A stretch of 64,000 nt of DNA, from assembly GCA_039944855.1 (NCBI GenBank), contig JBDUXZ010000013.1, positions 1-64,000 on the forward strand, written 5' to 3'. Of the stretch, positions 1 to 53,977 are shown piece by piece (position 1 is the stretch's first letter; every line of letters begins with the position of its first letter). The position numbers were made by a program, and so were the translations under genes. The notes beneath the pieces were generated by a model. It searched no databases and was not told the origin of the DNA. It saw only the letters and a program-made list of their open reading frames with translations. This stretch comes from Rhodothermales bacterium (GTDB taxonomy: Bacteria > Bacteroidota > Rhodothermia > Rhodothermales > JANQRZ01).

Positions 1-463
1 GCTCGTGTTCGACTTCGGCAACCCGATGCCGAACATGAACCCGATCAACTTCGACAACACGTACAACAAGGCGTCGATCTTCTTCGACTTCCAGTGCAAC
101 CTCCCCCCGACGGCGAGCGGGCCGGGGATCTACTACTGGGACGATGTCGCCTTCGGTGACGTCATGCCGGTCGCGAGCGAAGACGGCAGCGGCCTCCCCC
201 GGATGCTGGAGCTGACGCAGAACTACCCGAACCCGTTCGGCGCGAGCACGACGATCCACTTCTCGCTACCGAGTGCGGAGTACGTCGGCGTCTACGTCTA
301 CAACGTCCTGGGCCAGCGCGTCGCTACACTCGCCGAGGAGACGCTGGAGGCGGGTGACCACGCGCTGTCGTTCGACGCGTCGGGCCTCGCGAGCGGCACG
401 TACTTCTACCGCCTGAACCACGGCGCGGGGAGCCTCACCCGGTCGATGGTGTTGACTCGGTAG
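1..463 (+). CDS. 3' end of a secreted T9SS-sorted protein (partial)
   Basis: The reading frame is open from the first bases of the window, so the start lies upstream. About the first 55 visible residues end in YYWDDVAFGDV, a pattern seen at the end of beta-sandwich carbohydrate-binding or glycoside hydrolase modules; I infer this only from resemblance. The last ~85 residues are a clear T9SS type-A sorting domain: QNYPNPFG, then VYNVLGQRVATL, then SGTYFYRL, ending MVLTR. Such domains direct export through the type IX system and are usually cleaved at the cell surface. The GH3 and GH16 genes follow on the same strand, so a role in polysaccharide (likely beta-glucan) breakdown is plausible, but the catalytic part is not visible. 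Confidence 0.8.
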   Translation, partial: LVFDFGNPMPNMNPINFDNTYNKASIFFDFQCNLPPTASGPGIYYWDDVAFGDVMPVASEDGSGLPRMLELTQNYPNPFGASTTIHFSLPSAEYVGVYVYNVLGQRVATLAEETLEAGDHALSFDASGLASGTYFYRLNHGAGSLTRSMVLTR

Positions 464-573
464 TCTCTCCCTCCGATGCTCGTGCAGGCGAAGACGCTTC
501 TCCTCCGACGGGGGAGGCGTCTTCGTCGTTCGTTGCATCGACGCCTTCCGTCCACTGAGCCCGGCCTGATACC

Positions 574-3156
574 ATGCGCTTCCGCCTCCTGCTTCTCTTC
601 GTCCTCATCACGGGTCTCGCCTCCGGGTGCGGCGTCCGACTAGAGCGGGCCTCCAACGCCGAGCGGCCCGAGGCCCGAGCGGACCAGACCGCCGTGGACT
701 CGCTGCTCGCGGCTGATTCGACCGGAGTCGCGCTCGCCGCCGATGATGGACCCGCGCAGATCCAGAGTGCCGTCGGCGCGGGGAACGTGCCGACGGGCGT
801 GGGATCGGGTGCGGCACAGGGCGTAGCGGTGGACGCGTCGCGGCTCGGCTCGCTCCGAGACGTAGAGCGCGGACCCGTCGCCGCCGACCTGCTCGACTCC
901 GAGGCGTTCCTCCGCGCGGCGAGCACGCCGAGCGCGGTGCCGGACGACGCCGATGCCCGCGCCGCTGCGCTCCTGGCGCAGATGACGCTCGAAGAGAAGG
1001 TCGGGCAGATGACGCAGATCACGCTCGAAGTGATCGCCGACAAGTCGGCGCGGCCGTACCTCATCGACCGGGCGAAGCTGCGGCGCGCCGTCGAGGACTA
1101 CCACGTCGGCAGCGTGCTCAACGTCGTGGACGAGACGTACACCGTTGCCGAGTGGCGGGCGATCACCGGCGCCATCGACAGCCTCTCGCGGGCGACGCGC
1201 CTTGGCGTCCCCGTGCTCTACGGCATCGACGCCGTGCACGGCGCGAACTACACCGTCGACGCGGCGCTTTTCCCCCAGAACATCGGGCTGGCTGCCACCT
1301 TCAACCCCGCGCTCGTGCAAGAGGCCGCTGCCCTGACGGCTCGCGATGTACGTGCGAGCGGGATCCCGTGGGACTTCGCGCCCGTGCTCGACATCGGCCG
1401 CCACGTCGCGTGGTCGCGGTTCTACGAGACGTTCGGCGAGGACCCGCACCTCGCGAGCGTGATGGGCGTCGCGCAGGTGCGCGGGTACGAAGGCGCGAAT
1501 CTCGACGCGGGCACGAGCGTCGCCGCGACGGCGAAGCACTACGTAGGCTACAGCGGACCGCGGACGGGCCGCGACCGGTCGAGCGCGTTCATCACCGAGC
1601 GCGAGCTGTGGGAGCTGTACCTGCCGCCGTACCGGGCCGCGATCGACGCGGGCGTCCACACCGTGATGATCAACTCCGGCGACATCAACGGCGTCCCGGT
1701 CCACGCGAGCCATCGGCTCCTCACGGAAGTTCTGCGCGACGAACTGGGCTTCGAGGGCTTCACCGTCAGCGATTGGGAGGACATCAAAAAGCTCGAACTC
1801 ATCCACCGCGTCGCCGAGAGCGAGCGCGAGGCGACGAAGATCGCCGTCCTCGCCGGCGTCGACATGAGCATGGTGCCCAACGACTTCTCGTTCTACGACC
1901 ATCTCCTCGGCCTCGCGCGCGACGGCGAGGTGCCCCTCGCGCGGATCGACGAAGCCGTCGGCCGCATCCTCCGCGTGAAAGCTCGCCTCGGTCTCCTCGA
2001 CGCGCCCGCCGTGGACGGCTCGGTGCCCGAAGCCGTCGGGAGCGACGCGGCGCATCGCACAGCGCTTCAGGCGGCGCGCGAGTCCATCACGCTCCTCCGC
2101 AACGGCGACGTGGACGGCGCGCCGATCCTCCCACTCGCCCCGGACGCCCGCGTACTCGTGACCGGCCCCGCCGCCGCGTCGATGCGCGCGCTCAACAACG
2201 GCTGGACGTACACGTGGCAGGGCGACGGCCGCGCCGAGCTGTTCTTCCCCGAGGGACGCACCGTGCTCGACGGCATCCGCGCGATTGCGGGCACCGAGAA
2301 CGTGGACTACGTCGAGGGCACCTCGTTCGACGCCGCGCTCGACCTCGATGCCGCCGCGACGGCGGCGCGTCGGGCGGACGTGGCCGTCGTCGTGCTCGGC
2401 GAGAGCAGCTACGCCGAGGTGCCGGGCTCCATCACGGACCTCACACTCCCGCAGGGCCAACTCGACCTGCTCGACGCTGTCGCCGCGACGGGCAAGCCGG
2501 TCGTGCTTGTCCTCGTTGAGGGCCGACCCCGCGTGCTCGGCGAGCACGCCGCGGCGGCCGACGCGATCGTGATGGCGTACAACCCCGGCAACGAAGGGGG
2601 GCAGGCCGTGGCCGAGGTCCTCTTCGGGCGCGTGAACCCGAGCGGGCGGCTCCCGTTCACGTATCCGTCGGGCCCGAACATGCTCGTCCCGTACGACCGC
2701 ACGCTCTCCGACGATCAGGACACGAGCTACGGCTTCGACGGCTTCCGCCCGCTCGCGCGTTTCGGCGACGGGTTGAGCTACACGGCCTTCGCTACGTCCG
2801 CCCTCGGGGTCCCGCCACAGGCGTCGCTAGACGGGCTCGGCGAGGGCGTAGCCGTGACGGTGACGGTCGAGAACACCGGGCCGGTGGCGGGGCACGAGGT
2901 CGTGCTGGTCTACCTCGCGGACCTCGTCGCGAGCGTCGCCCCACCGATGGAGCGGCTCGTCCGCTTCGCGAAGGTCTACCTCGAACCCGGCGAGCGCCGC
3001 ACGCTCTCGTTCGCGCTCGACGCCCGCGCCCTCTCGTTCGTGGACGAAACCGGCCGGCGGCTCGTCGAGCCCGGCCGCTTCACGGTCCGCGTCGCCGATC
3101 AGACGGCCGACTTCGCGCTCGACGGCGATACTCCGCTCGTTCTCTCCTCACGGTAA
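574..3156 (+). CDS. Glycoside hydrolase family 3 beta-glucosidase, lipoprotein
   Basis: An 860-residue protein. The N-terminus is a lipoprotein signal with lipobox LASGC (Cys19), followed by a ~100-residue Ala/Asp-rich linker. The GH3 barrel begins near residue 129 (AQMTLEEKVGQMTQ). The KHYVGYSGP and MINSGDINGVPVHAS segments are typical of the BglX group, and FTVSDWED carries the expected catalytic nucleophile, Asp400. The alpha/beta sandwich domain follows (LLRNGD, AYNPGNEGGQAVAEVLFG), then a fibronectin-III-like domain over the last ~100 residues. The family removes terminal beta-D-glucosyl units from oligosaccharides. It lies 7 bases upstream of the GH16 gene, probably in one transcript: GH16 would cut the polymer and this enzyme would trim oligomers at the outer membrane. 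Substrate linkage is inferred from context, not shown. Confidence 0.93.
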   Translation: MRFRLLLLFVLITGLASGCGVRLERASNAERPEARADQTAVDSLLAADSTGVALAADDGPAQIQSAVGAGNVPTGVGSGAAQGVAVDASRLGSLRDVERGPVAADLLDSEAFLRAASTPSAVPDDADARAAALLAQMTLEEKVGQMTQITLEVIADKSARPYLIDRAKLRRAVEDYHVGSVLNVVDETYTVAEWRAITGAIDSLSRATRLGVPVLYGIDAVHGANYTVDAALFPQNIGLAATFNPALVQEAAALTARDVRASGIPWDFAPVLDIGRHVAWSRFYETFGEDPHLASVMGVAQVRGYEGANLDAGTSVAATAKHYVGYSGPRTGRDRSSAFITERELWELYLPPYRAAIDAGVHTVMINSGDINGVPVHASHRLLTEVLRDELGFEGFTVSDWEDIKKLELIHRVAESEREATKIAVLAGVDMSMVPNDFSFYDHLLGLARDGEVPLARIDEAVGRILRVKARLGLLDAPAVDGSVPEAVGSDAAHRTALQAARESITLLRNGDVDGAPILPLAPDARVLVTGPAAASMRALNNGWTYTWQGDGRAELFFPEGRTVLDGIRAIAGTENVDYVEGTSFDAALDLDAAATAARRADVAVVVLGESSYAEVPGSITDLTLPQGQLDLLDAVAATGKPVVLVLVEGRPRVLGEHAAAADAIVMAYNPGNEGGQAVAEVLFGRVNPSGRLPFTYPSGPNMLVPYDRTLSDDQDTSYGFDGFRPLARFGDGLSYTAFATSALGVPPQASLDGLGEGVAVTVTVENTGPVAGHEVVLVYLADLVASVAPPMERLVRFAKVYLEPGERRTLSFALDARALSFVDETGRRLVEPGRFTVRVADQTADFALDGDTPLVLSSR

Positions 3157-3163
3157 TCCTCCC

Positions 3164-4762
3164 ATGCGCGTCCTCCCTCTCGCCCTCGCTCTGCTCTTCG
3201 TCGCGGCCTCCGGCGCGCACGCTCAAGACCCGCCGTCCGACGAGTGGATCCTCGTGTGGGAAGAGGACTTCGCCGCCCGCGATGCCGCGTTCGACGCGCG
3301 CTGGGACGTCGGCACGCACACGTTCGACGGCAACGAGGCGCAGTTCGTCGCGGAAAACGTCGTCGTCGAGGACGGGCTGCTGAAGCTCCGCCTCACCGAC
3401 GAGCCGGCTGGCAACCGGCTCTACAGCGGGGCCGAGCTGCGCACCGACAACCAGACGGGCTTCTTCACGTACGGCCGCTTCGAGGCCCGGATGAAAGCGG
3501 CCACGGGGTCGGGCATCATCTCGTCGCTCTTCACCTTCCGCTACCAGCCGTGGCAGGAGATCGACATCGAGTTCAAGGGGCGCGACACGAACGCGATGCA
3601 GGCGAACATCTTCTACAACGGGGGCCGCGCGGGCGACCCGAACAACGAGCCCTACGAGGTGCCGCCGTTCCCCGAAGACGCGCCGCTGCCGTACGACGCC
3701 GCGGAGGAGTTCCACGTCTACGCCTTCGAGTGGGAGCCCGGCATCATCCGCTGGTTCGTCGACGGCGAGCAGGTGCTGGAGAGCCAAGACCCGGCGCAGG
3801 TCCCGAATCTCCCGCAGCAGCTCATGATGAACATCTGGATCACCAACCTCCCGTGGGCCGGCCCGCTCGACCCCGACGCCGCCCCCGCCGAGGCGCAGTA
3901 CGACTGGGTCCGCGTCTACCGCCGCGACCGCGGCCTCGTCTTCGACACGTTCGACGACGGCGACGTGAGCGACGTCTTCGTCTTCAGCGAGACGGGCGGC
4001 GGCATTGGCGTCGGCCCGATCGAGGACGCGAACGGCGTGCCCGACCGGGCGGTCAACGTCGGCATCAATCCGGCCGGGGCGGGGTCGTTCGCCGGGGTCG
4101 TCTTCGCGGGCGATGCCGGGGTGATGGACGCCAGCGAGGCGACCGCGCTCACGTTCCAGCTTCGCCCGTCCATCCAGGCGAGCAACCTCCCGCTCACACT
4201 CGAGATCAACCTCCACGAGGACGTGAACGGCAACAACGCCTACGACGGCGCGACCGAGGACGAGTACCAGGCGACTTACGAAGTCACCGGCCCGTCGGGC
4301 TACGTCGACGTATCGATCCCGCTCTCGGCGTTCACCGACGACAACTCGGTCTTCCCCGGCGCCAATGACGGGTTCGACTACACGAAGCTGTTGGAGATCG
4401 TCGTCGCCATCGTCGGACCGACGGGGCCGGGCTACGCGCTCTCGTTCGACGAGTTCGCCTTCGCCGCCGTGACGACGGCGGCCGAAGCGCAACCCGAGCC
4501 CTTCGCCACCGCGCCGGTCGTCTTCCCGAACCCGACGCGAGACGCGGCCACGGTCGCCTTCGAGCTCGCGGCGCCCTCCGATGTCCGTGTGGAGGTGTTC
4601 GACCTGTTGGGCCGTCGCGTGGCCGAGGTCGCAGCGGATATTCAAGCGGCGGGGATGGTCCGCCTCGATGTGTCCACGGAGGGCTTAGCGCCGGGCGTCT
4701 ACCTCGCCCGCGTGCAAACGGAGACGGCGGTGACCACGACGCGCTTCTCAGTCGTGCGATAA
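3164..4762 (+). CDS. GH16 family endo-beta-glucanase with T9SS sorting domain
   Basis: A 532-residue secreted protein. The signal peptide is about 20 residues, ending in Ala-His-Ala before QDPPSDEW. The GH16 domain covers roughly residues 24-255 and contains EIDIEF, with Glu132 (nucleophile), Asp134 and Glu136 (acid/base) in the family's ExDxxE arrangement. HVYAFEWEPGIIRWFVDGE is the usual GH16 strand after it. A second module (~258-445, beginning VFDTFDDGD) looks like a ligand-binding beta-sandwich. The last ~80 residues are a T9SS sorting domain (VFPNPTRD, VFDLLGRRV, GVYLARV). GH16 enzymes of this type cut beta-1,3 or mixed beta-1,3/1,4 glucans such as laminarin; the exact substrate cannot be read from sequence. 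It is probably co-transcribed with the GH3 gene. Confidence 0.92.
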   Translation: MRVLPLALALLFVAASGAHAQDPPSDEWILVWEEDFAARDAAFDARWDVGTHTFDGNEAQFVAENVVVEDGLLKLRLTDEPAGNRLYSGAELRTDNQTGFFTYGRFEARMKAATGSGIISSLFTFRYQPWQEIDIEFKGRDTNAMQANIFYNGGRAGDPNNEPYEVPPFPEDAPLPYDAAEEFHVYAFEWEPGIIRWFVDGEQVLESQDPAQVPNLPQQLMMNIWITNLPWAGPLDPDAAPAEAQYDWVRVYRRDRGLVFDTFDDGDVSDVFVFSETGGGIGVGPIEDANGVPDRAVNVGINPAGAGSFAGVVFAGDAGVMDASEATALTFQLRPSIQASNLPLTLEINLHEDVNGNNAYDGATEDEYQATYEVTGPSGYVDVSIPLSAFTDDNSVFPGANDGFDYTKLLEIVVAIVGPTGPGYALSFDEFAFAAVTTAAEAQPEPFATAPVVFPNPTRDAATVAFELAAPSDVRVEVFDLLGRRVAEVAADIQAAGMVRLDVSTEGLAPGVYLARVQTETAVTTTRFSVVR

Positions 4763-4837
4763 CGCCGGGTCGGGGCGGAGGGCGACCCTCCATCACACAT
4801 GCAGGGCAGGCTTGAAAGCGGCGGGAGATCTGGCGCA

Positions 4838-4885
4838 TCCTTTGGCCTATCCTTTTGTTGCATCTGTTTTTATCCTATCATGAGG
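4838..4885 (+). promoter_or_regulatory. AT-rich promoter-like segment ahead of the eight-gene operon
   Basis: A short T-rich island stands out from the GC-rich surroundings between the GH16 stop and the GCS2-family gene. TATCAT at 4876-4881 can act as a -10 box with TTTTGT at 4853-4858 as a weak -35 (17-bp spacer); TATCCT at 4871 is an alternative. There is no other obvious start site before the operon. The -35 match is poor, so an activator may be needed. Confidence 0.35.
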
Positions 4886-5015
4886 TCCTCCGTACGGGTT
4901 AGGCGCCGGTGCGATGGCACGGAGGCGCTGAACCGTTGGGTGTTTGTGCGGGGATACTGCCGGGTGGCACTGCCGTCTCCGGCTCGTCTCGCTCTCTCTG
5001 CTCCGTGGACGACTC

Positions 5016-6146
5016 ATGATGCCGCCGTGGACCACCCCTCCCGCCGCAGCTGCTGACGAAGCGGCAGGGAAGCCCGTGTGCGATGAGGTGCAAGTCCGAG
5101 GAGCGTATCGCGGGGCTTTGCTCGGCCCCGAGCTCGAGTTCTTCGTCGTGAACGAGCGGACGCTGAAGCCGTGGGATGGGATGGGCGTGCTGGCTCGCCA
5201 CCCGCTGTTCGGCGAGGCCATCAAGCCGGAGATCGCCCGAGAGCAAGTGGAACTCGTCGCCCCGCCGACGTGGTCGCTCGGAGAGATGGAGCGGTTCCTG
5301 ACGGACCTCGTGCACGAAGTCGGAGCGCTCCTGAAAGCGGAGGGGGCCTGCCTGCTGCCGCTCGCGCTCTACGACACGGCGCCCTTCACGATCACCGAGG
5401 CGCCCCGCTACCGCCTGCTCCTCGACGTGTTCGGCGAGCACTTCTGGACGCACGCGCGCGCCATCGTCGCCGACCAAGTGAACGTGGGCGCCGCCGACGA
5501 GGCCCAGGCGTTCCGCGTGTTCGAAGCCGTAACCCACTACCTCCCGCTCTACATGGCGATCTCGGTGGCGAGCCCGTTTCTGGGAGGGCGCCCCACCGGC
5601 GTGGCGAGCAACCGGATGGCGCTCTACGACGCCTGCGCGAGCCGCTACCCCGAACTGGTCGGACTGCCCCCGCCGATCGCCTCGCTCCGCCACTACAACC
5701 TGTTGTTGGAGCGGCAGCCGGTCCTCCACCACCCGAACATGTTTTACCGCTACGCGCGGCCGATGCCTCAGCGCGGCGTGGCCGCCGAGATCCGCTGCAT
5801 CGACAAGCAGCCCACGCTGCGGGACTTCATGGCGCTCGTCGCCCTCTCGAAAGCCATCGCCGGCGAGGCGACGGCGTCGGACCGGCTGTACTCGCGCGAC
5901 GGGTTGGAAATACGCTTCGCCGAGGCGCGGCGGCGCGGGGTGACGCGCCCGGCCGCGTGCAAGCGGACGCTCGACCGGCTGCGGGCGTTTCTCGACGAGG
6001 GCGAGCAGGTTTACTTCGACCCGCTCTACGAACGTCTCCTCTACGGCTCGGCGGCGTCGGTCCTCCAGAAGCGCGCACGGGAGCAGGGGTACGACGCCGC
6101 GCTCCGCCACCTCGCCGCCCACTACCTCGATCCCGCAGCGTCATGA
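5016..6146 (+). CDS. GCS2-family glutamate-cysteine ligase-like enzyme (EgtA-like role)
   Basis: A 376-residue protein of the glutamate-cysteine ligase family 2. It shows GPELEFFVVNERTLKP near the N-terminus (family GxExEF strand), PEIAREQVELVAPP (substrate and metal region), DQVNVGAADEAQAFRVFEA followed by SPFLGGRPTGVASNR, and AAEIRCIDKQPTLRDFMAL near the C-terminus. The family makes gamma-glutamyl amides, classically gamma-glutamylcysteine, with ATP; EgtA of ergothioneine synthesis belongs here. I chose ATG 5016 (ATG 5019 is equally possible); the longer frame needs a TTG at 4944 and adds residues unlike the family. Its stop overlaps the next start (ATGA, 6143-6146), so translation is coupled. 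Here it may build a gamma-glutamyl donor or protecting group for the product of this operon. The true amine acceptor is unknown. Confidence 0.8.
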   Translation: MMPPWTTPPAAAADEAAGKPVCDEVQVRGAYRGALLGPELEFFVVNERTLKPWDGMGVLARHPLFGEAIKPEIAREQVELVAPPTWSLGEMERFLTDLVHEVGALLKAEGACLLPLALYDTAPFTITEAPRYRLLLDVFGEHFWTHARAIVADQVNVGAADEAQAFRVFEAVTHYLPLYMAISVASPFLGGRPTGVASNRMALYDACASRYPELVGLPPPIASLRHYNLLLERQPVLHHPNMFYRYARPMPQRGVAAEIRCIDKQPTLRDFMALVALSKAIAGEATASDRLYSRDGLEIRFAEARRRGVTRPAACKRTLDRLRAFLDEGEQVYFDPLYERLLYGSAASVLQKRAREQGYDAALRHLAAHYLDPAAS

Positions 6147-7726
6147 CAATTTCGGCGACATCGAACGAGTCGACGGCAGCCGCTGCTGCGGAGGCGTTCG
6201 AGCGTATGGCAGCCACGTACGTCCCGCTGCGCGGACGGCTCCACGTCTTTGGCAGCGGCGAGCAGCACTTCGTCATGCCGGGCGTGGACGACGAGCGGGT
6301 GCGGCGCACGCCGGCCGGTCTCGAACTCGCCCTGCCAGACGCGCTGGCCGAACTCGAGCGGCAGGGCCGCCGGTGTCTGTTCGTTGTCGGCGGAGCGGGG
6401 GCGGGGAAGACGGCTTTTTTGCAGGCGCTCTGTGGGGCGGTAGTGCGAGACGGCGGCGCTGTCGCCGGGCGTCCCGTCTGGCACGGCGAGGTGGCAACGG
6501 TGCTCGCCACGGACTCCGGCGCGGGGACGCGTGCGCAGCTCCCGGCGAATGGGTACATCCTGCTCGACGGGTTCGACCGGATCAAACCGGAGGCCGCGCG
6601 GGTCGAGGCCGTGCGCACGCTCGAAGCGGTGATGGTGGAGCGGCCCGAGGCGCGGTTCGTTGTGGCGTCGCGGCCGTCGGCCCTGTCGTCGGCGTGGCTG
6701 GACGATCGTTTTTTAGAGGTGCGGCTGTGCGCGTTGGACGGGACAGAACGGGCGCGCCTCATCGAGCGGTGCTCCGCAGCGTCGGACGGCGGCGATGCCG
6801 ATGCGGTAGCGGTGCGGTTGACGGAGGCTTGCGCGACCCCCGCCGGTGCTTTTCTGGCGCGTACCCCGCTCGTCGTCCGCGCCCTCTGCGAGCGGGTCGA
6901 CCGCGACGGGACGCTGCCCGGCCCCGTGTCCGAGTGGGTGGAGGCGTGTGCGCTCTGGGCTGATGAGCGTCGCGATCTAGCCTCGACGGTGGACGGGCTG
7001 CGGCGAGGCGTGGAGGACCTCAGAAACGCATACGGCAACGGTCGCGAAGCGCTCTCCCTGATCCGGGTTCGCGGCGGCTCGTTCCCAATGGGCTCGCCAG
7101 ACGACGAGGCGGGGCGGTGGAGCGACGAGGGGCCGGTGCACACGGTCACCGTACCCGACTTCCTGCTCGCGCCGCTTCCCGTGATGAACCACGCGTACGG
7201 CCTCTACCTCGCCGCTCACCCCGACACGGAACCGCCGCCGCACTGGGGCGACCCCGCTTTCTCGCACCCCGATCAGCCGGTCGTGGGCGTAGAGTGGGAG
7301 GAGGCGCGCCGGTACGCCGCGTGGGCCGGCGGCCGGCTCCCGACCGAGGCCGAGTGGGAGTACGCCTGCCGCGCCGGCACGTCGGCTCCACGCTACGGCG
7401 ACATCGAGTCGATTTGCTGGTATCGGGGCAACAGCGGGGCGGAACTGCACCCCGTCGGGCAGAAGGAGCCGAACGCGTGGGGCTTCCACGACATGCTCGG
7501 CAACGCATGGGAATGGGTCGAGGACGACTTCCACGCCGGCTACGCGGGAGCGCCCGACGACGGGCAGGCGTGGTGCGATCGGCCTCGCCGAACATCGCAC
7601 GTACTCCGTGGAGGCTCGTGGGCGGACGCGTCCCACGTCCCGCGCGCGGCGACCCGGCTGAACGACCACCCCGGGCCGCGTATCGCGAATGTCGGATTCC
7701 GCCTCGCCCGATCCCTCCATCCCTGA
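6143..7726 (+). CDS. P-loop (NACHT-like) NTPase fused to an FGE/SUMF1 domain
   Basis: A 527-residue two-part protein. The N-terminal half has Walker A GGAGAGKT (Lys89, Thr90) and Walker B ILLDGFD (Asp142), followed by FVVASRP, a layout like STAND/NACHT ATPases. From about residue 306 (LIRVRGGSFPMGS) to the end is a formylglycine-generating-enzyme/sulfatase-modifying (SUMF1) domain with GGRLPTEAEWEYACRAG, GNAWEWVEDDF, VLRGGSW and NVGFRLAR. The sulfoxide synthase EgtB also has an SUMF1 half, but its iron-binding DinB half is absent here. The paired copper-binding cysteines of true FGE are not seen after RGGSW. The chemistry is therefore open: C-type-lectin-like binding is as likely as catalysis. 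It starts inside the previous stop; the longer in-frame upstream extension overlaps the GCS2 gene and is not real. Confidence 0.75.
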   Translation: MTISATSNESTAAAAAEAFERMAATYVPLRGRLHVFGSGEQHFVMPGVDDERVRRTPAGLELALPDALAELERQGRRCLFVVGGAGAGKTAFLQALCGAVVRDGGAVAGRPVWHGEVATVLATDSGAGTRAQLPANGYILLDGFDRIKPEAARVEAVRTLEAVMVERPEARFVVASRPSALSSAWLDDRFLEVRLCALDGTERARLIERCSAASDGGDADAVAVRLTEACATPAGAFLARTPLVVRALCERVDRDGTLPGPVSEWVEACALWADERRDLASTVDGLRRGVEDLRNAYGNGREALSLIRVRGGSFPMGSPDDEAGRWSDEGPVHTVTVPDFLLAPLPVMNHAYGLYLAAHPDTEPPPHWGDPAFSHPDQPVVGVEWEEARRYAAWAGGRLPTEAEWEYACRAGTSAPRYGDIESICWYRGNSGAELHPVGQKEPNAWGFHDMLGNAWEWVEDDFHAGYAGAPDDGQAWCDRPRRTSHVLRGGSWADASHVPRAATRLNDHPGPRIANVGFRLARSLHP

Positions 7727-8921
7727 CCCCGCGCCCAACGGCCCGGCCATGCCCTCGACTCCCAACCGAACCGCCTCGCACGAGACGCCCGTCGCCATTC
7801 TCGGCGGCGGCGTGGCCGGGCTCAGCCTGGCGCTCGCGCTGACGCGCGCGGGCGTCGGGTGCCGGGTGTACGAGCGGTCCCTCGACATCGGCGGCGGCGG
7901 GATGGGATTCATCCTCATGCCTGACGGGCTCGCGGCGCTGGAGCGACTGGGTTGTGCCGACGCCGTGCGGCAGGCGGGCGCTACTGCGTGGCGGTCCGAA
8001 GAGCGGTCGGCGTCCGGCGCTCCGCTCGCTGAGAAGGTGCTGCCCGAGCACGTGTGCATTCTCCGCCGCGCGCTGCTTCCGCTGCTGTTCGCGGCGCTCC
8101 CCGACGGCATCGTGCGGCAGGGCATCGCGTTCGCCGGATTCGACGAGGGGGAGCATCGCGCGGCGCGGCTCGTGACGGACCCGGGAGAAACATCCGGCGA
8201 GACCGTCACGGCAGCGGCCTATGTCGGGGCCGACGGCAAGCGGTCGCGGGTGCGGGAGGCGCTGTTCCCGGCCCACCGAGTCGAAGAGACGCCCGTCACC
8301 GAGTTGATCAACGGCCTTCACGCCCCCAACGTGGCCGAGGCGCTGCGCGACCGACTCCTCAAGTTCAGGGACGAGCGCGGCGGCCTCGCCGTCGGGCTCG
8401 CGTCGGTGGGGGAGGGCGAGGTCGTCTGGTACGTCCAGTTCGACCGGCGCGCCCACCCGATGCCGGAGGACGAGGCGGACGCCAAAGAGCGCTTCGCGCG
8501 CCGTCTCCTCCGGGGCTGGCCGGAGCCGCTGCCGGATCTCATTCGCCGGACCGATTTCAGCCGCTCCTACCTCTCGGAAGTCGTCGGGATGGCGACGCTG
8601 CCGCGCCTGTACGGCGGGGACACCGTGCTCGTCGGCGATGCGGCGCACCCGCTGCCGACGCTGCTGGGGCAGGGGGCGAACGCGGCGGTCTGCGACGCTG
8701 TCCTGCTCGCCGACGCGCTCCTCGGGAACGGCGGATTCTCGGCGGAGCCGGCAGCGCTCCAACGCGCCTTAACCCGCTACGACCGACGGCGCTTGCCGGA
8801 GGTGGACGCCCTCCACCGCGAAGGGCGGGCGCGGGTCGATGCGTTTACCCGATCCGCCGATCGGGTCGGTGCGCCCCCGCCGTTCTCCCTCCGTGAACCT
8901 TCGAGCCGAGCCACGCTATGA
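7689..8921 (+). CDS. FAD-dependent monooxygenase, PHBH/UbiH fold
   Basis: A group A flavin monooxygenase. VAILGGGVAGLSLALAL is the N-terminal FAD-binding GxGxxG strand, followed by the acidic end YERS. Near the C-terminus, TVLVGDAAHPLPTLLGQGAN is the second FAD motif (GDAAH-P) of the p-hydroxybenzoate hydroxylase fold. The family hydroxylates or epoxidises aromatic and other electron-rich small molecules with NAD(P)H and oxygen. As given it overlaps the previous gene by 38 bases; ATG 7749 would remove the overlap and drop a disordered Pro/Ser-rich 20-residue start. The stop overlaps the next gene (ATGA at 8918-8921). In this operon it is a likely tailoring oxidase; the substrate is unknown. 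Confidence 0.82.
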   Translation: MSDSASPDPSIPDPAPNGPAMPSTPNRTASHETPVAILGGGVAGLSLALALTRAGVGCRVYERSLDIGGGGMGFILMPDGLAALERLGCADAVRQAGATAWRSEERSASGAPLAEKVLPEHVCILRRALLPLLFAALPDGIVRQGIAFAGFDEGEHRAARLVTDPGETSGETVTAAAYVGADGKRSRVREALFPAHRVEETPVTELINGLHAPNVAEALRDRLLKFRDERGGLAVGLASVGEGEVVWYVQFDRRAHPMPEDEADAKERFARRLLRGWPEPLPDLIRRTDFSRSYLSEVVGMATLPRLYGGDTVLVGDAAHPLPTLLGQGANAAVCDAVLLADALLGNGGFSAEPAALQRALTRYDRRRLPEVDALHREGRARVDAFTRSADRVGAPPPFSLREPSSRATL

Positions 8922-10123
8922 GCCCTGTCGCTACGCCTACTCTCTTCACCGACGATGCGGTCCGCATGGACCTGCTGCGCGAGCGGGCGCACAACATGCG
9001 GTGGGCCGAGCTTCCGCCCGACGTGATCGTACTGACGGCAGCGGACCCCGACTTCCCCGTCGCGCATGAGATTCGGGAAGCCATCCGCGAATACGTCGGC
9101 GGCGGTGTGCTGTCGTATGGCCCGGCGGAAGGTCTCCCGAGCTTCCGCCACGCCGCCGCCCGCTTCGCCCTCGAGCGGCGCGGGATCGACGCGCACCCCG
9201 ACCGCGTCCTCGCTACCGACTCGGCCGCGGCGGCGATGCACGTCATCGCCCGCTTCGCGCTGGAGCCGGGCGACGAGGCGATCATCTTCGATCCCGTCGA
9301 CTTCCTGTTTCAGCAGTCGGTCGAGGCGGCGGGCGGGATCGCCGTGCGGAGCCCCATCGACCCGGCACGCGGGGCGTTCGACGTGGAGGACGTGCGGGCG
9401 CGGATCACGCCGCGCACGCGGATGGTCGGGCTGTGCAACCCGCACAACCCCTTCGGGCTCGTCGCCACGCGGGAGGAGCTGCAGGCGCTCGGAGAACTGG
9501 CCATCGAGCACGATCTGTGGATCATGTCCGACGAGATCTGGTCCGACATCGTCTTCCCGCCGCACGAGCACGTTAGCATCGCGTCGCTCGGGCCGGAGAT
9601 CGCCGCCCGCGTGCTCACCGTCTTCGGATACTCGAAGTCGTTCGGGCTGGCCGGCCTCCGCATCGGGTTCCTCGTCGCCCCCGACGCCGACGTCTTCGAA
9701 GCCGTGACCGAGGCCTCGCACGCGCGCTCGACCATGTTCGGTGCGGCGACGGTGTCGCAGATCGGGGCGCAGGCAGCCTACGAACACGGCTGGTACTGGG
9801 TCGATGCGTTCCTCGATCACCTCCTCGGCGTGCGCGACCGCGCCGCCGCCCGGCTCAACGCCATCGAAGGCGTGACGTGCCGTGCTCCACAGGGGACGTA
9901 CCTCCTCTTCCCAGACGTGAGCGCCTTCGGCCTGAGCAGCATGGAGCTGACCGACTACCTCCTCACCGAAGGCCGCGTGGGCGTGGTGCCGGGCGCTGCC
10001 CGGTGGTTCGGCCCCGGCGCGGAGGGCCACATCCGCATCGCGTTCCCGACCTCGAATGCCATCATCGACGAGGGGCTCGACCGCATCGAGCACGCGCTCG
10101 CTCGACTCGGCGGAGGTGGGTGA
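8918..10123 (+). CDS. Fold-type-I PLP enzyme, MalY/PatB or aminotransferase-like (EgtE-like role)
   Basis: A 401-residue class I/II PLP-dependent enzyme. CNPHNPFG is the usual NP-x-NP-x-G type segment. SDEIWSDIVFPPHEH carries the aspartate that contacts the pyridine nitrogen (Asp205), and GYSKSFGLAGLRIGF contains the Schiff-base lysine (Lys240). GHIRIAFP holds the arginine that binds a substrate alpha-carboxylate. The SDEIW-x-DIV stretch resembles the cystathionine beta-lyase-like C-S lyases (MalY, PatB) and the ergothioneine lyase EgtE, but these motifs cannot exclude an aminotransferase. With the GCS2-type ligase and the EgtC-like hydrolase in the same operon, a C-S lyase releasing a thiol from a cysteine conjugate is an attractive inference. 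Confidence 0.78.
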   Translation: MSPVATPTLFTDDAVRMDLLRERAHNMRWAELPPDVIVLTAADPDFPVAHEIREAIREYVGGGVLSYGPAEGLPSFRHAAARFALERRGIDAHPDRVLATDSAAAAMHVIARFALEPGDEAIIFDPVDFLFQQSVEAAGGIAVRSPIDPARGAFDVEDVRARITPRTRMVGLCNPHNPFGLVATREELQALGELAIEHDLWIMSDEIWSDIVFPPHEHVSIASLGPEIAARVLTVFGYSKSFGLAGLRIGFLVAPDADVFEAVTEASHARSTMFGAATVSQIGAQAAYEHGWYWVDAFLDHLLGVRDRAAARLNAIEGVTCRAPQGTYLLFPDVSAFGLSSMELTDYLLTEGRVGVVPGAARWFGPGAEGHIRIAFPTSNAIIDEGLDRIEHALARLGGGG

Positions 10124-10178
10124 GGGGACACGTTCCCGCCCACAGATCGCTTCACGTTCATCCCCGACATCCACCGTC

Positions 10179-11099
10179 ATGTGCCGCGTCGTCGCCTACC
10201 TCGGGTCCCCGCTCCTGCTCGACGTGCTCCTCTACCGCTCGGACAGTTCGCTCGTCCGGCAGGCCTACGACCCGAGCATGCTCTCCTTCATGAACCTCGC
10301 CGGCTCGGGCTTCGCTGCCTGGGATTCGGCCTCGCCGCGCCCCGAGGTACCGTTCCTCTACAAAGATACCCTGCTGCCGATGTACGACAGCAATCTGATC
10401 CAGATGAGCGGCAAGATCCGCAGCGAGTGCATGATCGCGCACGTCCGTGGGGAGGACTACTACGGCGGGTCCGCGCCCCAAGTCGGCCGCGCCAACCTGC
10501 ACCCATTCCAGTACGAGGGCGCAGGTCTGGCGATGGCGCACAACGGCGGACTGGCGCGTTTCGCCGAGATGAAGTACCACCTGCTGCCCCACATCCGCGA
10601 GGAGGTGGCCGCACGGATCGAGGGGACGACCGACAGCGAGTGGCTCTACGCCCTGCTCCTGTCCCGCTTCGAGGGGAGCGCCGCAGAGGCAGGCCCCGAC
10701 GAACTGGCCTCCGCCGTGGTCGAGACGCTCCGCATCGTCCGCGCCGTCCGCGACGAGCACGGGATTGACGTCGCCTCGGGCGTGAACCTCTTCGCCTCCA
10801 ACGGCACGACGCTCGTCGCCACGCGCTTCAGCTACGACTTCGGGTGCTACGACGGCCAGATCAACGAGCGGCAGCTCGTCTACCACTCGCTCTGGTTCAC
10901 GGCCGGGCAGGCCTACGGGCGCTACGAGGACGAGTGGCGCATGGGCGGGAGCATGGACGAGGCCGACTCCATCCTCATCGCCTCCGAGCCGCTCACCCGC
11001 GACGCCTCCTCGTGGATCGAGGTGCCCGAGTACACCCTGCTCACCGCGACCCGCACCGACGGCCGGCTCGCCCTCACCGCCCGAGACCTCGACCTATGA
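10179..11099 (+). CDS. Class II glutamine amidotransferase-type hydrolase (EgtC/YafJ-like)
   Basis: A 306-residue N-terminal-nucleophile protein. It begins Met-Cys-Arg (MCRVVAYLGSP), so removal of Met exposes Cys2, the catalytic nucleophile; this fixes the start at 10179 rather than the upstream in-frame ATG at 10056. IAHVRGEDYYGG, NLHPFQYEG and MAHNGGLARF match the class II fold (glutamine-binding HVR and oxyanion Asn-Gly). No synthase domain follows, as in EgtC, which removes gamma-glutamate from a gamma-glutamylcysteinyl sulfoxide. The gene overlaps the next by ATGA (11096-11099). I infer that it removes the gamma-glutamyl group added by the GCS2-type ligase. Confidence 0.82.
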   Translation: MCRVVAYLGSPLLLDVLLYRSDSSLVRQAYDPSMLSFMNLAGSGFAAWDSASPRPEVPFLYKDTLLPMYDSNLIQMSGKIRSECMIAHVRGEDYYGGSAPQVGRANLHPFQYEGAGLAMAHNGGLARFAEMKYHLLPHIREEVAARIEGTTDSEWLYALLLSRFEGSAAEAGPDELASAVVETLRIVRAVRDEHGIDVASGVNLFASNGTTLVATRFSYDFGCYDGQINERQLVYHSLWFTAGQAYGRYEDEWRMGGSMDEADSILIASEPLTRDASSWIEVPEYTLLTATRTDGRLALTARDLDL

Positions 11100-12094
11100 C
11101 GAGCACCACCAACGCCACCGCGTTTCTCCGAACGCTCGATTTGTTCAGCGACCTCTCCGATCGCGAGATCGAGGAGCTTGCGCTGACGGCCGTGCCGTTC
11201 GAACGGAGCGCGGGGGGCTACCTCTTCCACCAGGGCGATGTGGCTGACGCGATGTACGGCATCGAGGAGGGTACCGTCCGCATCACCGTGCGGATGGCCG
11301 GCGAAGAGGAGGTCGAGTTGGTCAGGGTGGGGGCGGGGGCCGTCGTGGGCGAGATGGGGCTCGTCGATGCCGACGTGCGTTCGGCGTCGGCCGCAGCCAC
11401 CGAGGCGCTGAGCGGCTACCGCATCGACGCGGCGGCGTTCGACGTGCTGCGTGCCGCGTTCCGCCCCAGCTCGTGCAAGGTCGTCCGGCGTCTCGCCGAG
11501 CTGATCAGCTCGCGCATCCGCGCCACGACGCTCGACCTCTACGGAGCGGCGGACGCGCCCGCTCTGAACGACGCCGATCGCTCGCCACCGGTCTCGTCCT
11601 CCCGCCGCCACCGCCAGGACCCGGACCTGGACCACCTCCTCTGCCTGCCCATCTTCGGCGCGTTCGCTCGGGACGAGATGGCGGACCTGCTCGGCGAGAT
11701 GGACTGGCTGGAAGTGCCGCGCGGCTGCGTGATCTTCGAGACGGGCGATGCGCCCGACGCCTGCTACGTCGTGACGCGCGGGGCCGTGGAAGCCACGCGC
11801 TTCCGGGGCGGCGGGCACGAGAAGATCGCGCTGTGGGGGCCGGGCCGGATGGTCGGCGAGCAGGCGCTCTTCTCGTCGGAGCCGCGCGACGTGCGGGCGA
11901 CGGCCCGCGAAGACTGCCACCTGCTTCGACTGGAGGTGGAGCCCTTTCGGAGGCTCTTCGACGAGACCTCCACGATCGCCTTCAAGCTCTCGGACGCGGC
12001 TACGCAGCAGATGGTGGTGGCGCTCCGCAATCTCAACCGGCGCCGGACGTGGCTCACGGCGCACCGCGGCGGCCGCTTCCATTTCTTTAAATAG
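11096..12094 (+). CDS. Tandem cyclic-nucleotide-binding-domain protein without an output domain
   Basis: A 332-residue protein with two CRP-like cyclic-nucleotide-binding domains, about residues 15-130 and 180-300. Both have a recognisable phosphate-binding cassette: GEMGLVDADVRSASAAA in the first and GEQALFSSEPRDVRATA in the second. No helix-turn-helix, kinase or membrane segment is visible; the ends are short, and the C-terminus is basic and aromatic (FHFFK). This is not a CRP/FNR regulator. It could tune an operon enzyme in response to cAMP or another nucleotide, or bind a small molecule other than a cyclic nucleotide. Placement inside the operon, overlapping the gene before it, suggests a direct role in the pathway. 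Confidence 0.82.
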   Translation: MTSTTNATAFLRTLDLFSDLSDREIEELALTAVPFERSAGGYLFHQGDVADAMYGIEEGTVRITVRMAGEEEVELVRVGAGAVVGEMGLVDADVRSASAAATEALSGYRIDAAAFDVLRAAFRPSSCKVVRRLAELISSRIRATTLDLYGAADAPALNDADRSPPVSSSRRHRQDPDLDHLLCLPIFGAFARDEMADLLGEMDWLEVPRGCVIFETGDAPDACYVVTRGAVEATRFRGGGHEKIALWGPGRMVGEQALFSSEPRDVRATAREDCHLLRLEVEPFRRLFDETSTIAFKLSDAATQQMVVALRNLNRRRTWLTAHRGGRFHFFK

Positions 12095-12106
12095 CTGGAC
12101 TACGCT

Positions 12107-13804
12107 ATGACTGACACGACCCGTGACTACGACTATCTGATTCTGGGGGCGGGCCCGGGCGGGTTGCAGATGGGGTACTTCTTGCAGCAGCAGGGCTGCC
12201 GCTACGTGATCCTCGAGCGGAACGAGGCCGTGGCGTCGTTCTTCCGCAAGCTGCCGCGCAGCCGGAAGCTCATCTCCTTCAACAAGGTCCACTCCATCTT
12301 CGACGACCCCGAAATCCTGCTCCGGTGGGACTGGAACTCCCTGTTGACGGACGATTACGGCTTCCTCTTCCGCAACTACAGCCAGCGCTTTTATCCCCAC
12401 GCCGACGAACTCGTGGCGTACCTGGAAGGCTTCGCCGAGGCGTACCAGCTCAACATCCAGTTCGGCACTAGCGTCGAGGGCGTGCGCCGAGCAGAGGACG
12501 GGATGTTCGAGCTCCGTGACAGCGAGGGGGGCTGCTACCGCACGCGGGTGCTGGTCGTCGCGACGGGCCTCAGTAGCGCCTACCGCCCCGACGTGCCGGG
12601 GCTCGAAGACACCGACGATTACGAGGACGTCCCGCTCCATGCCGACGCCTTCGCGGGGCAGCGCGTGCTGATCGTAGGGAAGGGGAATTCCTCCCTGGAG
12701 ATCGCCGACGTAGCCCTCGAATCGGCCGCCATCGTCCATGTCGCGAGCCCGCGCTCGCTCGTGCTCGCGTACAACTCGCGCCACCCCGGACACGTCCGGG
12801 CCGAGTACGCGAAGCTCATCGACGCCTACCACCTCAAGACGCTTAACAGCCTCCTCGACTGCTCCGTGCTCGGCATCGCGAAGCAATCGGACGGCACCTT
12901 CGTCGTCACCGTGGCCTACACGCATGCTGAGGGCGAGGTCGACGAACTGGTCTACGACCGGGTGGTCCGGTGCACCGGCTTCTGCCTCAACACCGACTTC
13001 TACGACGAGGCCTGCCGGCCCGCGACGCTGCTCGACGAGCGGCTGCCCGCGATCACGCCGTACTGGGAGTCCGTGAACGTTCCGGGGCTCTTCTTCGCTG
13101 GCGCGCTGATGCAGGGGCGGGACTTCAAGCGCTCCTCCTCGGCCTTCATCGACGGCTTCCGCTACAACGTGCGCACGCTGTTCCGCCACCTCATGAGCCG
13201 GTACGAAGACATCCCCGTACCACGTGAGACGCTGCCGGTCGATCCGGAACTGCTCATGCAGACCGTGGTCGAGCGGGCCAGCCGTACCTCGGCACTGTGG
13301 GCCCAGTTCGGCTATCTCTGCGACGTCTTCGTCGTGCGGGACGAGCAGGTCGAGTGGTACGAAGAGCTCCCCTTCCAGGGACTGCTGGAAGGGGAGTTCA
13401 AGGATGAGGCGCACGTTTACAGCCTGACCTTCGAGTGGGGGAAATGGAACGGGGATGTGATGGCCATCGCCCGTCACCCCGTGCCCGACGCGGCGCACCG
13501 CAGCGTGTTTCTCCACCCCATCGTCCGCCGCTTCGCCTTCGGCGAGTTGGTCTCGGAACACCACCTGTTGGAAGACCTGTTCGGGGTCTTCTCCTCGACG
13601 CGGGAACGGGGGGGCGTGCTCTCCCACTCGGGCGAAGGCATCGAGGACTACCACCGCTCGGCCCACGAGCAGCCGCTGGCCGCGTACTTCGCCGACGCGT
13701 TCGCGCACGGCCCGAGCTCTCAGAGCGAGCGGCTCAATGGAGTGGAGGTGTCGGTCAACGTGCCGTCGCCTCCGCCACTTTCACGAAACGAACCCTCACC
13801 CTAG
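12107..13804 (+). CDS. FAD/NAD(P)-binding monooxygenase-like flavoprotein (FOXRED2-like)
   Basis: A 565-residue flavoprotein. LILGAGPGGLQMGYFL is the FAD Rossmann motif near residue 13, and VLIVGKGNSSLEIAD near residue 187 is the NAD(P)H motif of class B flavin monooxygenases. RCTGF and FFAGALMQGRDFKRSSSAF match the FOXRED2-like branch. After the oxidoreductase core (~residue 400) there is an extra ~165-residue segment (ALWAQFGYLCDVF, FEWGKWNGD) that I cannot assign. It starts 12 bases after the previous gene. With the PHBH-type enzyme it gives the operon two separate oxygenation steps; class B enzymes oxidise nitrogen, sulfur or carbonyl centres. The substrate is unknown. Confidence 0.78.
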   Translation: MTDTTRDYDYLILGAGPGGLQMGYFLQQQGCRYVILERNEAVASFFRKLPRSRKLISFNKVHSIFDDPEILLRWDWNSLLTDDYGFLFRNYSQRFYPHADELVAYLEGFAEAYQLNIQFGTSVEGVRRAEDGMFELRDSEGGCYRTRVLVVATGLSSAYRPDVPGLEDTDDYEDVPLHADAFAGQRVLIVGKGNSSLEIADVALESAAIVHVASPRSLVLAYNSRHPGHVRAEYAKLIDAYHLKTLNSLLDCSVLGIAKQSDGTFVVTVAYTHAEGEVDELVYDRVVRCTGFCLNTDFYDEACRPATLLDERLPAITPYWESVNVPGLFFAGALMQGRDFKRSSSAFIDGFRYNVRTLFRHLMSRYEDIPVPRETLPVDPELLMQTVVERASRTSALWAQFGYLCDVFVVRDEQVEWYEELPFQGLLEGEFKDEAHVYSLTFEWGKWNGDVMAIARHPVPDAAHRSVFLHPIVRRFAFGELVSEHHLLEDLFGVFSSTRERGGVLSHSGEGIEDYHRSAHEQPLAAYFADAFAHGPSSQSERLNGVEVSVNVPSPPPLSRNEPSP

Positions 13805-13816
13805 ACCCGAGAGATC

Positions 13817-14368
13817 ATGGCTCACATCACCGTTCCTGAAGGCGTCCCCGGCATCCTGGGACCTATGATGCGCTACCCCGAGACGGCGCAGGCGCTCAAC
13901 GCGCTCGCCCAAACCCTGCTCCGCGGCGAGTCGTCGCTGCTGGAAGCCGAGCGCGAGCTGATCGCGGCCTTCGTCTCTCGGCTCAACGACTGCACGTTCT
14001 GCTGCAACTCGCACGCCGCCACGTCGCGCTACCTGTTCGGGGAGCAGCAGGGCGTCGTAGACTCGGTGCTCGACGACATCTTCTCGGCGCCTATTTCGGA
14101 GCGGGCCCAGGCCCTGCTTGCGATCGCCGCGAAGGTGCAGCAGGGCGGGCGCCACGTGGAGGATGCGGACGTTGCCCGTGCGCGCGCAGCCGGTGCCGAC
14201 GACCGAGCGATCCACGACACGGTGCTCATCGCCGCTGCGTTCTGCATGTTCAACCGCTACGTCGACGGGCTCGCCACGTGGGCCCCGCAAGAGCCGAGCG
14301 CCTACGAAGCCATCGGGGCGCGGCTGGGAGCGCACGGATACGTAGGCTCTGTGAGTGGGACCGCCTGA
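13817..14368 (+). CDS. AhpD/carboxymuconolactone decarboxylase-family protein
   Basis: A 183-residue all-helical protein of the AhpD-like peroxidase-related group. The motif runs Cys59-T-F-Cys62-C-N-S-His66, the CxxCxxxH redox centre of AhpD, preceded by AFVSRLNDC. AhpD proteins recycle thiol-dependent peroxidases or act as small thiol reductases. It is the last gene of the operon, 12 bases after the flavoprotein. A thiol-redox protein ending this cluster fits a pathway that makes or handles a small sulfur compound, though the group is also common in unrelated contexts. Confidence 0.83.
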   Translation: MAHITVPEGVPGILGPMMRYPETAQALNALAQTLLRGESSLLEAERELIAAFVSRLNDCTFCCNSHAATSRYLFGEQQGVVDSVLDDIFSAPISERAQALLAIAAKVQQGGRHVEDADVARARAAGADDRAIHDTVLIAAAFCMFNRYVDGLATWAPQEPSAYEAIGARLGAHGYVGSVSGTA

Positions 14369-53971: not shown

Positions 53972-53977
53972 ACGCAC

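Follow-up and report, generated by a model that had tools for sequence, protein, structure and literature searches.

Analysis of a 64,000-nucleotide stretch of DNA from a Rhodothermales bacterium (contig JBDUXZ010000013.1, positions 1 to 64,000; hereafter the window) showed an eight-gene operon at positions 5016-14368, in which the gene of an EgtC-like hydrolase is followed by the gene of a protein with two cyclic nucleotide-binding (CNB) domains in tandem. The hydrolase and the tandem CNB protein are a conserved pair, and the CNB protein is the most faithful partner of the hydrolase. We put at about one in two the probability that the operon is a module for adding and removing a gamma-glutamyl group under a nucleotide sensor resembling the protein kinase A regulatory subunit (PKA-R), coupled to enzymes that tailor a small metabolite.

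Pairing of the hydrolase with a tandem CNB protein

With the hydrolase as tblastn query, a plasmid gene of Legionella adelaidensis was found that is 45% identical and flanked by a GCS2 ligase gene and a tandem CNB gene. The alignment of these two hydrolases was used to scan bacterial genomes, with hydrolase sequence as the only query, and 34 loci were obtained in Legionella, sphingomonads, a gammaproteobacterium and a delta-like metagenome-assembled genome (MAG); a tandem CNB gene adjoined the hydrolase gene in every one, as in all 35 loci that hydrolase sequence had picked out. When genomes of the Legionella order, the G464 phylum and the sphingomonad order were added, the CNB gene stood next to the hydrolase gene in 56/56 loci of the clade (host, Legionellales, sphingomonads and delta-like MAGs; locus L125 duplicates L058, many loci are congeneric, and the independent lineages are fewer, about six in the tree). 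The two genes lay on the same strand in 54 of the 56, with gaps mostly below 35 nt or start-stop overlaps. The adjacency was likewise seen at 30 shorter Legionellales loci, and a CNB gene was present in the flanks (mostly 1.5 kb on each side) of 0/26 EgtC-like control loci outside the clade. In the tree, the CNB-linked hydrolases formed a clade with support of 97/93 and the host hydrolase grouped with the protein of a delta-like MAG (locus L028; support 98/90); the long branches of L145, L120 and L130 were of uncertain placement. The original prediction, made from the window alone, had described the CNB protein as an addition to an ergothioneine-like gene set, which these loci do not bear out.

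Sphingomonads carried the pair without further partners, and Legionella carried a trio of hydrolase, CNB and GCS2 genes without tailoring genes. This association was not described in the literature searched, most subscription journals being outside the search, and its novelty is provisional. The sole co-mention of the components concerned non-adjacent genes in Actinoplanes (PMC7567727).

The AlphaFold model of the operon hydrolase (pLDDT 88.6) had EgtC with substrate (4zfl) as its top PDB match, with a TM score by target of 0.83. Residues C2, R90-G91, N122-G123 and D152 were invariant in 20 members and correspond to the class II pocket of PurF and class II glutamine amidotransferases (GATase), so that the protein has a Cys directly after the initial Met plus the pocket Arg, Asn-Gly and Asp. 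By this model and these residues, the protein is predicted to be a gamma-glutamyl amidohydrolase with Cys2 as the catalytic residue.

Bacterial CNB domains are known mostly in transcription factors, channels, acetyltransferases and encapsulins. No helix-turn-helix (HTH) or DNA-binding domain was found in the operon CNB protein by Pfam or in its AlphaFold model (pLDDT 88.6), whose first PDB matches were PKA regulatory subunits and PKG at E about 1e-17; the whole-chain TM score against them was low (about 0.3), the domain arrangement being different or flexible. The phosphate-site Glu and Arg are kept in both CNB domains of the operon protein, the only such protein among those examined, and in domain A they are also kept in 18/18 alphaproteobacterial proteins and at loci L028 and L119, the latter from a MAG. 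Class III cyclases were present in 9/9 carrier genomes tested. At L028, a gene beside the hydrolase (1781-6166, minus strand) encodes a 1461-residue fusion of an IDO-like part, a CysJ-like FAD/NADPH reductase, cytochrome b5 and a C-terminal tandem CNB. At L119, a gene (6514-9405, plus strand) directly upstream of the hydrolase and of a second tandem CNB gene encodes a tandem CNB fused to a SufS-like class V pyridoxal phosphate (PLP) enzyme. These fusions argue for a post-translational role of the CNB protein with metabolic enzymes. A second CNB protein was seen on the other side of the L028 hydrolase (1-594, minus strand); its C-terminal part looked methylglyoxal synthase-like by eye, and Pfam reported a CNB domain only.

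Genes of the operon and their relatives

The eight open reading frames (ORFs) formed one block on the plus strand, with three ATGA start-stop overlaps, as the original prediction had it, at 6143, 8918 and 11096, and with other intergenic gaps of 12-55 nt. GC content at third codon positions was 0.84-0.93 in every operon gene, as in the upstream GH3 and GH16 genes. Families were called by Pfam and NCBIfam searches with curated cut-offs; they confirmed the predicted families (GCS2, FGE, PLP, N-terminal Cys class II, two flavoenzymes, tandem cNMP-binding and AhpD-like), with refinements. The genes are as follows, all on the plus strand.

5016-6146, plus: GCS2-fold ATP-dependent gamma-glutamyl (carboxylate-amine) ligase, divergent (Pfam GCS2, 77 bits, gathering threshold 21, 1.9e-21)
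6143-7726, plus: STAND-like P-loop region with a C-terminal SUMF1/FGE-fold domain (Pfam FGE-sulfatase, 180 bits, 6e-53)
7689-8921, plus: FAD_binding_3 (group A) flavin monooxygenase (Pfam FAD_binding_3, 92 bits, 5.9e-26)
8918-10123, plus: fold-type I PLP enzyme of PatB C-S lyase/aspartate aminotransferase grade (Aminotran_1_2, 177 bits)
10179-11099, plus: EgtC-like N-terminal Cys, N-terminal nucleophile (Ntn) hydrolase of class II GATase fold, predicted gamma-glutamyl amidohydrolase (GATase_4, 41 bits)
11096-12094, plus: tandem CNB (cNMP-binding) protein without HTH (Pfam cNMP_binding, 127 bits, two stretches)
12107-13804, plus: FMO-like flavoprotein monooxygenase with two dinucleotide folds and a C-terminal extension (Pyr_redox_3, 132 bits, 3.6e-38)
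13817-14368, plus: CMD/AhpD-type peroxidase-related protein with a CxxCxxxH motif, CTFCCNSH (Pfam CMD, 45 bits, 8.9e-12)

The GCS2 ligase scored 102 bits against TIGR02050, below the cut-off of 176. Its E-x-E, second Glu, RP and E-x-R motifs were conserved in the alignment, with QVN in place of the H(V/M)(H/Q) of its relatives, and it matched the Legionella GCS2 partner at 1.3e-9 by profile. A YbdK-type GCS2 gene precedes the hydrolase-CNB pair in the main lineage of Legionella, and in a second Legionellales lineage a divergent ligase of about 475 residues, with a weak yet significant likeness to GCS2, takes the same slot. Against Pfam GCS2 the latter gave 1.1e-5 at L121 (over the cut-off), a match below the cut-off at L122 and none at L126, where the ligase aligns with those of L121 and L122; a profile-profile comparison gave 1.1e-5. 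Ligases of at least two GCS2-fold kinds recur beside the pair, although not every pair has one. The presence of these ligases as neighbours in many Legionellales loci and in the operon, together with EgtC as the best match of the hydrolase model, supports the predicted functional link of the two enzymes and agrees with gamma-glutamate being put on and taken off. Upstream of the CNB gene, L041 and L044 (loci L094/L097) had GCS2-like fragments, matching at 54-62% over about 57 residues, where other Legionella have the whole ligase gene, and this pattern of sequences suggests recent ligase loss.

The N-terminal region of the FGE gene showed a Walker A motif (GGAGAGKT) and a Walker B-like motif (LLDGF), with NACHT/AAA_16 just under the Pfam cut-off. 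The FGE domain was predicted to be as in EgtB; it is nearest PvdO (NCBIfam, below the PvdO cut-off; PDB 5hha, 1.8e-31) and is fused to this P-loop/NACHT-like region. Its C-terminal RGGSW segment RGGSWADASHVPRAATR, where FGE has its copper-binding Cys pair, contains no cysteine. The PLP enzyme scored 224 bits against the PatB model TIGR04350 (cut-off 340) and 211 against GntC, with PDB matches to aspartate aminotransferase (1j32, 2.2e-54) and PatB (6qp3, 2.6e-50); the enzyme is indistinguishable from an aminotransferase. For the FAD_binding_3 gene a later ATG at about 7749 is a possible start, and the nearest NCBIfam model of its protein was HpxO, scoring far below the cut-off. The CMD/AhpD protein scored 91.9 bits against TIGR01926, above the cut-off of 81.8.

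The FMO-like flavoprotein had full-length relatives of 40-48% in one order-mate, in Nonomuraea and in two genomes of the G464 phylum. The protein is a putative ERFAD/FOXRED2-like flavoprotein; no ERFAD sequence or structure was among its matches. An ERFAD-like sponge protein, the brominase OroF, is reported to brominate pyrroles, and ERFAD itself to be without a known reaction (PMC12833800), which lends the assignment indirect support. Nonomuraea had two CMD copies, 53-55% identical, beside its FMO homologue; FMO-CMD as a conserved pair was considered and is not general, since no CMD gene lay beside the FMO homologues of three other genomes. At L151 (6554-11985, plus strand) an ERFAD-like flavoprotein gene was seen in an apparent operon, a candidate biosynthetic cluster, with a 3-hydroxyanthranilate dioxygenase-like cupin, an N-methyltryptophan oxidase-like protein, a HisC-like PLP enzyme and a membrane protein. 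The neighbours of the FMO-like relatives suggest oxidative small-molecule chemistry, nothing more specific. A kynurenine-type pathway was considered from the IDO fusion of L028 and the cupin of L151, which are suggestive, but no common substrate could be shown.

No complete second copy of the eight-gene set was found in any other genome searched. The hydrolase clade had no second member in 395 genomes of the phylum, where other matches were at most 37% and outside the clade; a scan of 114 order-mate genomes at E 1e-40 gave no other match of the STAND-FGE protein, and the FMO alone was found in one order-mate. The original prediction had named joint retention of the GCS2, FGE, PLP and class II genes in relatives as its test, and the outcome went against it: relatives retain only the class II gene with the cNMP-binding gene, often with GCS2. 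Elsewhere in the window, a 2763-codon open frame was seen on the minus strand at 45686-53977, antisense to several long frames.

Proposed function and alternative explanations

A degenerate or partial ergothioneine cluster was rejected. The same genome has a DinB-FGE EgtB on another contig, at C5:442474-443727, side by side with EgtD at C5:443950, and therefore the operon is no incomplete version of the host's ergothioneine route. The pair at C5:442474-444858 is the normal short-form ergothioneine route of the host. EgtD and the DinB-FGE EgtB are absent from the operon, as the original prediction stated, and present in the genome: no EgtD was found among the eight genes by Pfam and NCBIfam, no DinB domain was found by Pfam in the FGE gene, and no operon protein reached an Egt equivalog cut-off of NCBIfam, the hydrolase scoring 125.8 bits against TIGR03442 (EgtC, cut-off 218.65) and the ligase 31.1 bits against TIGR03444 (EgtA, cut-off 370.8). 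Neither flavoenzyme is known from an Egt pathway. With these results and the PvdO-like FGE domain on a STAND-like ATPase region, the proposed ergothioneine-like logic does not hold as a whole.

In the module that we propose, the GCS2 ligase would, as its family suggests, consume ATP in attaching a gamma-glutamyl group, as an amide, to a small amine or to cysteine. With the amine masked, the group A monooxygenase, the PLP enzyme and the ERFAD-like flavoprotein would oxidise, transfer or cleave the substrate, possibly joined in these steps by the PvdO-like FGE domain, and the CMD protein would handle peroxide or a redox step. The hydrolase, of EgtC type in its fold and catalytic residues, would then take the glutamate off. 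The tandem CNB protein would act post-translationally, bound to the hydrolase in the way that PKA-R holds its catalytic subunit, and the activity of the hydrolase would be set by a cyclic nucleotide or a similar ligand. The hydrolase-CNB pair would be the ancient core, the ligase a frequent third member and the five other genes specific to this operon.

Several observations weigh against this proposal. The domain-A Arg is missing in 33/33 Legionellales CNB proteins, and cyclic-nucleotide gating is therefore not universal; the Legionellales protein could be a scaffold or bind another ligand. No GCS2 gene was found next to the pair in the alphaproteobacterial loci, and in some Legionella loci GCS2 is lost or present only as fragments. 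Only the structure of the operon ties the core to the tailoring genes, the full set having been seen in no other genome searched.

On this last point, the five tailoring genes may be unrelated passengers, the system proper being limited to the EgtC-like/CNB pair, with GCS2 or without it; its substrates would be ordinary gamma-glutamyl peptides or pools related to glutathione. The sphingomonad pair and the Legionella trio, each standing alone, fit this explanation, but three translationally coupled junctions and short gaps over all eight genes do not, nor do the fusions of tandem CNB with oxidative and PLP enzymes that two other lineages carry, and we consider it somewhat unlikely. A thiol or sulfur pathway, in which GCS2-made gamma-Glu-Cys is oxidatively joined to an acceptor, the EgtC-like enzyme takes off the Glu and C-S cleavage by the PatB-like enzyme yields a thiol, appears unlikely. 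It would draw on the EgtC fold and EgtC-model similarity of the hydrolase, the 224 bits of the PatB model, the SufS-like PLP-CNB fusion of L119 and the CysJ-like reductase-CNB fusion of L028; however, a sulfoxide-synthase partner is missing, the FGE domain is PvdO-like without DinB, the PLP enzyme scores equally with aspartate aminotransferases, and EgtB and EgtD are elsewhere in the genome.

The missing Arg of the Legionellales proteins would suit a CNB protein that is a mere scaffold or compartment factor without ligand control, and the class II GATase fold, common to glutaminase domains, would suit a hydrolase acting as a glutaminase and supplying ammonia to the PLP or flavin enzymes. This explanation is improbable, as the ligand residues are intact in both CNB domains of the operon protein, no synthase domain accompanies the Ntn domain, and EgtC-type enzymes are free-standing hydrolases. 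Lastly, the GCS2 enzymes that have been tested elsewhere use small amines, and the conserved glutamine-binding pocket of the Ntn hydrolase suits small gamma-glutamyl amides, with tailoring enzymes surrounding the operon hydrolase. This makes it very improbable that the GCS2-fold ligase glutamylates a protein, the N-terminal Cys hydrolase reversing this and the CNB protein being the switch, despite the co-occurrence of ligase, hydrolase and regulatory subunit without tailoring genes in Legionellales and the kinship of GCS2-fold ligases to the protein ligases PafA/Dop (discussed in PMC2588565).

If the gated gamma-glutamyl module is real, the strict pairing would open post-translational nucleotide control of metabolite deprotection to direct tests that need no more than two small soluble proteins. 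The EgtC-like/CNB pair, for which many Legionella and sphingomonad genomes have only a generic annotation, would gain a function, and gamma-glutamyl-masked pathways of a new class would be defined. The operon also holds a candidate bacterial relative of ERFAD.

Comparison with known systems

The operon hydrolase has the N-terminal Cys Ntn fold and class II pocket residues in common with EgtC (PDB 4zfj/4zfk/4zfl), but it shares 22% identity with it, has about 70 more residues, falls below the cut-off of the EgtC model, sits in a separate clade of the tree and is partnered with a tandem CNB protein instead of EgtB/EgtD. The GCS2 ligase has the same fold and core motifs as the YbdK/GCS2 carboxylate-amine ligases and EgtA; it is divergent and below every curated cut-off, whereas the Legionella partner is a bona fide YbdK-type ligase. 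PvdO, of pyoverdine maturation, is the nearest relative of the FGE domain, and the operon protein differs from it in being fused to a STAND-like ATPase region, with no periplasmic export signal seen. The FMO-like protein would resemble ERFAD/FOXRED2 in being a two-domain FAD/NAD(P) flavoprotein with a C-terminal extension, but is bacterial and has no endoplasmic reticulum signal.

The CNB protein shares with the PKA regulatory subunit and PKG two CNB domains in tandem, the absence of an HTH and the phosphate-site Glu/Arg in both domains. In contrast to them it is bacterial, no dimerisation/docking domain or inhibitor segment was identified in it, and its partner is an Ntn hydrolase, not the kinase of PKA-R. 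A tentative extension, possible but doubtful, would place the deprotection of a small molecule directly under a second messenger: the pair would correspond in bacteria to the PKA holoenzyme, with a tandem CNB subunit that controls a gamma-glutamyl Ntn hydrolase, and hence reversible gamma-glutamylation, in place of a kinase.

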